From contig JAICSU010000004.1 of assembly GCA_025936735.1 (NCBI GenBank), forward strand, positions 1 to 40,874: 40,874 nt of DNA. Reading direction: 5' to 3'. Shown here piece by piece: positions 8,139 through 24,782 of this stretch. How positions within the stretch are numbered: the stretch's first letter is position 1; each line of letters starts with the position of its first letter. The translations under genes were made by a program, and so were the position numbers. The notes under the pieces are model-generated. The model was not told the DNA's origin and searched no databases. It saw nothing but the letters and a program-made list of their open reading frames with translations. Origin of the DNA: Amnibacterium sp. (GTDB taxonomy: Bacteria; Actinomycetota; Actinomycetes; Actinomycetales; Microbacteriaceae).

Positions 8139-8648
8139 GTGCTGCTGCTGCCGGCGCTGCTGGTCGCCGTCGCCGTCCTCGTCGGGCTGGTGCTCCTTCT
8201 GCGCCCCGCGCTGATGAGCGCGCCGCCGCTCGAGGCCGACCCCGCCTCCCCCCGCATCAGCACCGAGGTGCGCAGCGGCGAGGAGCAGGTCATGATCCAC
8301 GTCGCCCGCTCCCTCAGCGTGGCGGTCGGTCCGGACCAGGTGGGCTACGGCGAGATCTACGTCGTCTCGTCCGCCGACGGCGTGATCAGGCTCGCGTCGA
8401 GGTCCGAGATCGGCCGCGGGTTCGACGGCGAAATCCGGTTGCAGCGCGGTCGCCGCGGAACGGTCGTGGAGTACTACGTGCTCCGGCTGCCCGGCGACGA
8501 GAGCCTGCACGGCCGGGTCCTCCGCCTCGACCGGCAGATCGCCGACGCGCTGCGCGGCCTCGACCCGCAGGCCGACGTGCGGATGGTCGCGGACCAGCCG
8601 CGGGAGCGCAGCGGCGGCCGGATGCCCCCGCAGCTCCCCGCGGGCTGA
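8139..8648 (+). CDS. Hypothetical membrane-anchored protein
   Basis: GTG start with good Shine-Dalgarno (ggagg-tgatgag-gtg); N-terminal TM (LLLPALLVAVAVLVGLVLLLRP) followed by a soluble beta-rich domain. An upstream ATG at 8076 is an alternative start. Confidence 0.7.
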   Translation: MLLLPALLVAVAVLVGLVLLLRPALMSAPPLEADPASPRISTEVRSGEEQVMIHVARSLSVAVGPDQVGYGEIYVVSSADGVIRLASRSEIGRGFDGEIRLQRGRRGTVVEYYVLRLPGDESLHGRVLRLDRQIADALRGLDPQADVRMVADQPRERSGGRMPPQLPAG

Positions 8649-8678
8649 GCCGGGCGCCGGTCCTCAGCGGCCCGGCTC
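8647..8678. terminator. Inverted repeat at convergent gene ends, possible bidirectional terminator
   Basis: Perfect 9-bp arms gagccgggc (8647-8655) and gcccggctc (8670-8678); no clear T-tract. Confidence 0.4.
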
Positions 8679-9551
8679 GTCGCGGACGGCCGGCAGGAGC
8701 CCGTCCGACAGCTTGCGCTGATCGAGCCAGATCGACTCGGGATGCGTGTCCAGCCCGGCGTGCACGTCGGATGCGCTGCGGATGCGGGCCACGCGGGCGA
8801 GGAGGGTGCCGTAGCCGACCTTCGCCACGACGTCGGCGGCGCAGAGCGCGAGCTGCTCGCCCGTCGTCCACGGGCCGCCCCACACCTGGCCCTGCAGGCC
8901 GAACACGACCGGGTAGACGAACCAGACGATCAGCAGCACCAGCATCGCCGAGCGGTACGGGCTGCGGGCGGACGGCGGCATCGAGGGCAGCGAGCGCACG
9001 ACCGTGGTGATCACGACGACGTAGAGCACCGCGAAGAAGACCGCCGAGACGCCGCCCCAGATCGCGAGGGCGGCCGGATCCGTCCCGCCGTCGACGACGA
9101 CGCCGCCGACGAACCCGAGCGCGATCATCACGAAGGCCGCGCTCGCGCCCGCGAGGCGGAAGCGACGCGCCACCGGTCCCGTGAGGCTGCTCACCGCGAT
9201 CAGCTCGACCACCAGCAGCGGCACGCTCACCGACCAGTCCATGTAGCGCGCCGCCCACGAGATCATGGCGGCGTCGTTCGGCCGCCAGAGGGTCCCGCTC
9301 CGGTCGTAGCCGAGCAGGAACAGCACGGCGATGAGGACGTAGGACGCGAACGCCACCGCCGTCACCTGCATCCCGGTGAGGGTCGCCGCCCGGTATCGGG
9401 GCGTCACGTCGCGCCGGGTCGCCGCCATCCGGAGGAAGGTCGCGCCGAGCGCGAGGCCGGCGACGACGATCCCGTACAGCACGAGCGAGTGCTCGGCGTC
9501 CGTGAGCGGGACGTTCCAGGGGGCGACGGCGCTCGGCACGGCGATGGGCAA
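8664..9551 (-). CDS. Type-1 microbial rhodopsin (putative light-driven proton pump)
   Basis: Seven TM segments; helix C RYMDWSVSVPLLVVEL, helix F WFVYPVVFGL, helix G ADVVAKVGYG with Schiff-base Lys. TTG start at 9551 inferred from an upstream GGAGG. Confidence 0.93.
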   Translation of the reverse strand: MPIAVPSAVAPWNVPLTDAEHSLVLYGIVVAGLALGATFLRMAATRRDVTPRYRAATLTGMQVTAVAFASYVLIAVLFLLGYDRSGTLWRPNDAAMISWAARYMDWSVSVPLLVVELIAVSSLTGPVARRFRLAGASAAFVMIALGFVGGVVVDGGTDPAALAIWGGVSAVFFAVLYVVVITTVVRSLPSMPPSARSPYRSAMLVLLIVWFVYPVVFGLQGQVWGGPWTTGEQLALCAADVVAKVGYGTLLARVARIRSASDVHAGLDTHPESIWLDQRKLSDGLLPAVRDEPGR

Positions 9552-9640
9552 CGGACCTCCTGGCTCCCGGTGGCCGCTGCGGCCGGATCCATGCTGCCGT
9601 GTGCGGCGCACGAATCCTGGGAGGCGACCGTGTCGCCGCC

Positions 9641-23344: not shown

Positions 23345-23923
23345 TCAGGAGGCGAGGACGGCCTCGAGCTCGGGGAGGCGGTCCTTCGGCATCAGCACCT
23401 GGCGGGGCAGCGAGCCCGTCGCCGGGCCGACGACGTGCCGCTGCTCCAGGTCCGTGAGCAGCCGCCGGGCGCGGGAGTACGGCACCTGCAGCTCGCGCTG
23501 CAGGCGGGCGGCCGACGCGTACTGGGTCTCCACGACGAGGCGCGCTGCGCGGGCGAAGTCGGGGTAGTCGTCGCCGAGCTGCGCCTTCAGGCCGGAGAGC
23601 TCGGAGCGGATCTCGTCACGCAGCGCGGGAACGGCTGCAGGCCTCTGGGCCTCCTGGTCGGTGGTCGTCGGCGCGGCCAGCGCGCTGTCGTGCGCGGGCT
23701 CGCGGTCCTCCAGCCAGGCCGTCACCTGGTGGAGGTCCGCCCAGTGCTGGTCGTCGGCCGAGCGCTGCATGGCCGTGCCGATGCGGACGACGGCGAGGCC
23801 GCCCGCCGCGAGGCCGAGCAGGGTGCCGGCGGGCCACCAGAGGAAGAGGAGCGCGGCGACGGCGAGGAAGCCGGCGAGCAGGAGCAGGGCGGTGCGCTTC
23901 GGGTCGGACGTGAGCGGGAGCAT
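23345..23923 (-). CDS. Membrane protein with C-terminal FtsK-gamma-like winged-helix domain (paralog A)
   Basis: Two N-terminal TM helices; ASAARLQRELQVPYSRARRLLTDLEQRHVVGPATGSLPRQVL resembles the FtsK/SpoIIIE gamma domain (LQRxxxIGYxRAARLxDxLExxGIVGPxxGSKPREVL). Confidence 0.85.
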   Translation of the reverse strand: MLPLTSDPKRTALLLLAGFLAVAALLFLWWPAGTLLGLAAGGLAVVRIGTAMQRSADDQHWADLHQVTAWLEDREPAHDSALAAPTTTDQEAQRPAAVPALRDEIRSELSGLKAQLGDDYPDFARAARLVVETQYASAARLQRELQVPYSRARRLLTDLEQRHVVGPATGSLPRQVLMPKDRLPELEAVLAS

Positions 23924-24136
23924 GGGCGGGCCTTCGCGGGTCGGAGCGGGCCGCCGGGCGCGCGCACACGACTCCCATCGCTGCCCGTGACGGCGCGACG
24001 GAGGAGACAGCCGGCGACGACACGGCGACGCTGGCGAGACGGTGCGGTGGGTACCGCGGCGGTGGCACCATTCTTCCCGGCCGAACCTGATCCCGCACCC
24101 GGAAGGGGCAGGACTGGGCGTCTTCTCGGCGCGTCG

Positions 24137-24655
24137 TTATCGAGTCGAGAGGAACCGCGGCGTGTCGACCTGGACGTGGAGCAGGCGACGGACCTCATCC
24201 GCGGACTCGGCCGGCACGAGCACCGCGCGCGGCGCCGTCCCCCGCGCCGGTCCGACGAACCCCTCGGCCTCCAGCAGGTCGAGGAGGTGCCGCGCCCGCG
24301 AGGCGGGCACGCCGAGGTCCCGCTGCAGGCCGGCGGTGGACGCCCACTGCGACGCGGTCACCACGGCCGCGGCGCGGGCGAAGTCCCGCCAGTCGTCGCC
24401 GAGGCGCACCCGCATCCGGCGCACCTCGCGGCCGAGGTCGCTCGGCCCGGGCGCGTCGAAGTCGATCTCGCCGTCGTGCGGCACCCGGGCCGCCTGACGC
24501 TGCATGCCGACGCCGATCAGGACGGTCCCGGCGACGCCGACCGCGAGCGCGACGACGACCCCGACCTGCCAGCTCTGCCAGAGCGCGACGACCGCCACGG
24601 CGAACACCGCGAGCGCGACCGCCCCGATCCGTTCCGAATGCGCCTGGTCCCGCAC
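24137..24655 (-). CDS. Membrane protein with C-terminal FtsK-gamma-like winged-helix domain (paralog B)
   Basis: Two N-terminal TM helices; ASTAGLQRDLGVPASRARHLLDLLEAEGFVGPARGTAPRAVLVP; aligns over about 70 residues to paralog A with about half the positions identical. Confidence 0.85.
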   Translation of the reverse strand: MRDQAHSERIGAVALAVFAVAVVALWQSWQVGVVVALAVGVAGTVLIGVGMQRQAARVPHDGEIDFDAPGPSDLGREVRRMRVRLGDDWRDFARAAAVVTASQWASTAGLQRDLGVPASRARHLLDLLEAEGFVGPARGTAPRAVLVPAESADEVRRLLHVQVDTPRFLSTR

Positions 24656-24782
24656 GGTTCCCCCCGTTCGAGCCGTGGACGGATCGCTCCCCCGAGCGCG
24701 TCCGCGGCTGCGCCATCAGGATCGCCGATCGGGGCGCCGAGGGCACGCGGAGCCGCACCCCCAGAGTGCGGGCCCGGGACGA

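Follow-up and report, generated by a model that had tools for sequence, protein, structure and literature searches.

What does a microbial rhodopsin do when it carries the helix-C carboxylates of an outward proton pump but lacks the helix-B histidine of the xanthorhodopsin-type pumps? The question is raised by a gene in the window, by which we mean the whole 40.9-kb stretch of Amnibacterium sp. DNA analysed here. An earlier note, made from the sequence, took the combination of a D-S-E motif with a missing His as the mark of a modified proton pump, for which proteorhodopsin, xanthorhodopsin and actinorhodopsin were the comparison. As set out below, placing the protein in its clade corrects that reading.

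The rhodopsin gene and its functional residues

The gene is a complete open reading frame on the minus strand (8664–9551), encoding 295 amino acids; reading the sequence directly gives a TTG start codon (9549–9551) and, 5' of it on the same strand, an AGGAGG ribosome-binding site (9556–9561). Its GC content by codon position (0.70/0.51/0.97) follows the pattern of a real gene, as does that of the neighbouring SNF2 gene, and the product matches Pfam Bac_rhodopsin with E 3.4e-28. Among solved structures it is matched best by CryoR1, at 231 bits, and CryoR2, at 230 bits, both aligned over residues 9–289 with the C-terminal tail included; the next best scores 85. Because of these 231-bit matches, and of a sister-species orthologue that is 77% identical, chance resemblance is excluded. 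No second rhodopsin was found in the window's genome, a 2.94-Mb draft that is 84% complete.

Residue alignment (all codons on the minus strand) gives Lys244 (8820–8822) as the retinal Schiff base lysine, equivalent to bacteriorhodopsin (BR) K216, with Asp105 (9237–9239) at the primary counterion and proton acceptor site, BR D85 or proteorhodopsin (PR) D97, and Asp240 (8832–8834) as the second counterion, BR D212. Glu116 (9204–9206) occupies the proton donor site, BR D96/PR E108, and Ser109 (9225–9227) the position of BR T89/PR T101; R102, L113 (PR L105) and the helix-F residues W210xxY213-P214 are also present. The earlier note was thus right in its description of a rhodopsin with retinal lysine, two carboxylate counterions and a donor-site carboxylate, and in the helix-C D-S-E, the Leu at the PR 105 site and the WxxYP motif. 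Conservation of the retinal lysine and of the two counterion sites extends to about 35 relatives.

The Ser that had been claimed for the helix-B His site is likewise found: Ser70 (9342–9344), at the position of PR His75, aligns with the His of all five xanthorhodopsin/Gloeobacter/actinorhodopsin-type references. At the position of BR T46 and CryoR1 R57, the window protein has Gly60 (9372–9374), so that the hallmark Arg of the CryoRhodopsins is absent. Glu232 (8856–8858) lies eight residues ahead of D240, a spacing that would put it at the BR E204 proton-release position. The conserved C-terminal tail, DVHAGLDTHPESIWLDQRKLSDGL (8697–8768), is predicted to form beta strands and is common to the CryoRhodopsins.

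Placement in the DSE/CryoRhodopsin clade

CryoRhodopsins are defined by an Arg at BR T46, and a DUF7882 gene lies beside every one of them (Lamm et al., 2025; PMC12227055). The same paper gives the DSE rhodopsins (Marin et al., 2023) as their closest relatives, with similarly long termini and without the Arg. The CryoRhodopsin hosts are Microbacteriaceae of cold environments; the host of the window gene is placed in the Microbacteriaceae. The AlphaFold2 model of the window rhodopsin (pLDDT 92.9) superposes on CryoR1 with an rmsd of 1.1 Å and a TM score of 0.93, against TM scores of 0.73–0.78 for xanthorhodopsin-type pumps. Identity is about 42–44% with CryoR1 and CryoR2 (PDB 8r0k–8r0p, 8r96–8r98) in structural alignment, and about 25–31% with the xanthorhodopsin-type pumps.

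A maximum-likelihood tree was built from 41 sequences, proteorhodopsin and the three published DSE proteins (Marin et al., 2023) not among them. In it, a DSE plus CryoR clade is split at 100/100 from xanthorhodopsin, Gloeobacter rhodopsin, Kin4B8 and actinorhodopsin. Within this clade the Arg-bearing CryoRhodopsins form one group (100/99), with the window protein outside; the latter joins four sequences of its own genus at 87/82, and those five join three others at 98/92. The phylogeny that the earlier note had proposed is thereby answered for xanthorhodopsin and actinorhodopsin, the window protein standing apart from both at 100/100, and proteorhodopsin is absent from the tree; the frame of reference that the note had chosen gives way to the DSE/CryoRhodopsin clade. 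With the pumps of the xanthorhodopsin, Gloeobacter rhodopsin and actinorhodopsin type, the window protein shares the D...E counterion and donor sites, the D212 and K216 equivalents and the green-tuning Leu, but it differs in its missing helix-B His, its C-terminal tail and its separate clade. On the evidence of tree and alignment, then, it is a member of the DSE/CryoRhodopsin clade and no xanthorhodopsin-type pump that has lost its His.

The same comparison bears on the His itself. The site is Ser in every non-Arg member of the tree and in most CryoRs (three have Thr and one Ala), and among seven more distant relatives it is Ala in five and Ser in two. Judged from these aligned sequences, lacking the helix-B His is a trait of the whole DSE/CryoRhodopsin clade and no peculiarity of the window gene. 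More restricted is the literal D-S-E: among the non-Arg sequences of the sample, Ser at BR T89 is confined to the window protein and the four relatives nearest to it; the remainder are D-T-E, save for a D-T-Q type. These same five proteins have, by spacing, Glu at the BR E204 position, where CryoRs have Met or Ile, although it is not unique to them, since four distant relatives (L105–L108) share it.

Is the window protein then, like a CryoRhodopsin, a UV/blue photoswitch that moves protons inward? CryoR1 and CryoR2 are its nearest solved relatives, and it shares with the CryoRhodopsins the conserved cytoplasmic tail (HPESIW...SD) and the Ser that is usual at the pump His site. On the other hand, Gly60 replaces the defining, buried Arg, no DUF7882 gene is adjacent, and the protein falls outside the Arg clade; CryoRhodopsin identity is ruled out by the first two. 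The window protein differs further in having Asp where CryoR1 and CryoR2 have a Glu counterion, Ala at the position of CryoR1 His249, and Glu232 on the extracellular side. A photoswitch of this kind is, to our minds, highly improbable.

The DSE rhodopsins fit better. The window protein has the literal D-S-E in helix C (D105-S109-E116); it lacks the Arg at BR T46 and is nearest to the CryoRhodopsins, outside their Arg group; and its N- and C-termini are elongated, with a tail that aligns with CryoR1 and CryoR2 to residue 289 and is conserved across the clade. The window protein has the DSE features compared here and lacks both the Arg and the adjacent DUF7882 gene of the CryoRhodopsins, an assignment made by features. 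The window rhodopsin is, on these features, a new member of an actinobacterial group that is already described, if little studied. A 213-kb plasmid of Frondihabitans sp. PAMC 28766 (listed host Himantormia) carries a related non-Arg rhodopsin (L057, NZ_CP014514.1:95539–96375), and the group can therefore be plasmid-borne.

DUF7882 linkage

Counted at loci flanked by at least about 1.5 kb of sequence, a DUF7882 gene is adjacent to 16 of 16 Arg rhodopsins versus 0 of 19 non-Arg ones, a pattern that supports the boundary between the two groups. Because the Arg group is a single clade, the association of Arg with DUF7882 may reflect a single event. The proposal that CryoRhodopsins are sensors rests partly on the constant adjacency of DUF7882, a linkage that their non-Arg relatives never show in our sample; this makes for a natural comparison, namely whether signalling goes with the rhodopsin Arg or with the shared tail.

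The 40.9-kb window holds no DUF7882 (PF25355) gene. The window's genome has two away from the rhodopsin locus, G000:C236:1496–1783 (L062) and G000:C99:757–1044 (L063); the copy on C236 is about 6 kb from a phytoene synthase gene (8157–8909), and a copy in genome G005 (contig C60) likewise lies about 6 kb from one. We rejected the presence of DUF7882 in the window's genome as a sign of a rhodopsin pathway, since 262 of the 400 genomes of the bacterial family contain it, often in many copies (up to 12 or more each). Since most of these genomes have no CryoRhodopsin, the general role of DUF7882 must be broader.

c4, a small, probably membrane-anchored protein beside the rhodopsin

In this one genus the rhodopsin has a different small neighbour. 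The gene that we call c4 (8139–8648, plus strand) is unannotated and encodes 169 amino acids, with a predicted N-terminal membrane helix followed by a soluble b-a-bbbb-a domain; it is convergent with the window rhodopsin, the two stop codons lying 15 bp apart. It has no match in Pfam or NCBIfam. The model has a pLDDT of 80.8 overall, with the soluble domain well predicted, and comparison of this fold with the PDB gave no match below E 1e-3; the hits obtained were weak, of START-like and KA1-like type. A divergent DUF7882 was considered, as the topology is similar by eye, and was rejected at the sequence level, where profile comparison gave a probability of 0.1%.

Among the 400 family genomes, strong c4 matches are confined to this genus, with nine copies (the window, L044–L047, L049–L051 and L094) in seven of seven genomes; the motifs RSEIxRG and LRLPxD are invariant among the copies, and other matches in the family are short and score near 20 bits. 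Eight of the nine lie no more than two genes from a rhodopsin, and between them they cover every one of the eight rhodopsins that the genus has of the window type or the L012-14 type. The arrangements vary: at L050 and L051, c4 precedes the rhodopsin gene and shares an ATGA overlap with its start; in G005 the two genes are convergent, as in the window; at L045–L047, c4 lies beyond a kinase gene as seen from the rhodopsin. In their main branches the trees of c4 and of the rhodopsin agree, which is what joint duplication and inheritance of the two genes would produce.

Adjacency that survives such rearrangement suggests a functional link, and c4, which at some loci is in one operon with the rhodopsin, is a specific candidate partner protein. 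Counting against such a partnership, the c4 of the window is convergent and not co-transcribed with the rhodopsin, and the ninth copy, in G004, persists next to a kinase where no rhodopsin gene is present. The association of c4 with rhodopsins is undescribed as far as our literature search reached, PMC12227055 making no mention of a c4 or kinase neighbourhood for DSE rhodopsins, and it is the part of this locus most worth following.

Ser/Thr kinase neighbours

In sister species a Ser/Thr kinase gene lies directly 3' of the rhodopsin on the same strand (L045, L046, L047 and L049); that of L045 (5052–6413) has a weak GAF-domain match. Related Ser/Thr kinases number 15–20 per genome in the genus, two or more of these ending in GAF-like domains, and the case for the kinase as a specific partner by adjacency is weakened by these paralogues. 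Because of them, and because the first three loci (L045–L047) are orthologous, the independent evidence for a kinase is small. In the window, no kinase gene adjoins the rhodopsin, the nearest being at about 15.5 and 27.5 kb. Our literature search returned no Amnibacterium rhodopsin and no rhodopsin–kinase neighbourhood in Microbacteriaceae.

Pump or sensor

The DSE rhodopsins that Marin et al. described in 2023 (in Biophys. Physicobiol.) reportedly show no or very small outward pumping, with extremely slow turnover. CryoR1 and CryoR2 have extremely slow, M-dominated photocycles, and mutation of the donor-site Glu in CryoR1 (E113Q) leaves the photocycle unaffected; the DSE photocycle is said to resemble theirs (PMC12227055). 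Because these cycles are slow, the donor Glu of CryoR1 is inert and the DSE photocycle is said there to be similar, the efficient outward green-light pump that the earlier note thought likely is not to be inferred from the letters D-S-E. By analogy with the CryoRs, and with the DSE rhodopsins as described there, a slow photosensor or weak pump would be likelier than an efficient green pump.

An ordinary outward pump that supplements the proton motive force, perhaps slowly or with the help of some activator, nevertheless has D105, E116, D240 and K244 all in place, no Arg barrier on the cytoplasmic side of the kind seen in CryoRs, and Glu232 at the position of the BR release-group E204. In addition, the R57T mutation of CryoR1 quickens M decay about 100-fold at pH 8 (PMC12227055), so a non-Arg protein could cycle faster than a CryoR and might do some outward pumping. 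Set against these points are the very slow turnover of the clade members that have been studied, the lack of a His present in five of five xanthorhodopsin-type references, and the retention of an extra cytoplasmic tail that those references lack and for which no part in pumping is known. We judge such a pump rather unlikely.

The reading to which we lean, with some reserve, is that of a seven-helix rhodopsin of the DSE group acting as a slow light sensor, or in regulated weak proton transport, with c4 as its candidate partner. Visible light, probably green, would isomerise the retinal, and the Schiff base proton would pass to the D105/D240 pair. With neither a helix-B His nor another efficient relay, the cycle would be slow and would run through a long-lived deprotonated, M-like state, suited to light sensing or regulated weak proton transport as the main role. 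The C-terminal tail of the CryoRhodopsins has been proposed to meet a transducer (PMC12227055), and here the cytoplasmic tail might relay the state of the rhodopsin to a partner, for which the neighbouring c4 is the best candidate in the genus. Possibly c4 would in turn feed a Ser/Thr kinase, as in the sister species in which a kinase gene follows that of the rhodopsin. Glu232 counts against this slow-sensor or weak-transport reading, as a possible extracellular proton-release group that is missing in CryoRs and would favour transport.

More tentative, and in our estimate doubtful, is an extension to the genus at large, by which its non-Arg DSE rhodopsins would be sensory receptors with a dedicated membrane-anchored c4, not detectably related to DUF7882, in a pathway from rhodopsin through c4 to a Ser/Thr kinase.

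Retinal supply

Neither Blh (PF15461) nor an RPE65-type oxygenase (PF03055) was found in the window's genome, in G005 (95% complete) or in G006 (100% complete), all three of which have a phytoene synthase; Blh is present in some sister species and, in G001, lies about 1.5 kb from another rhodopsin. The host might then make a rhodopsin that is seldom loaded with retinal, for want of a retinal-forming enzyme, and the protein would then scavenge retinal from outside or be in effect idle. Against this, the genome in question is a draft of the incomplete kind noted above, the retinal lysine and counterion sites are conserved as described, and a rhodopsin of the DSE/CryoRhodopsin group is kept in seven of seven genomes of the genus; such conservation and retention mean that selection acts on the rhodopsin. 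We therefore consider a seldom-loaded protein very unlikely.

Two further observations concern the genome and the window. At G000:C238:3947–5550 there are two adjacent squalene/phytoene synthase-like genes, seen within the genus only in the window's genome, which may represent a pair of hopanoid type or else contaminating sequence in the draft. The minus strand of the window also encodes two small proteins (23348–23926 and 24140–24658) that each carry an FtsK gamma domain, the DNA-binding tail, without the FtsK motor.
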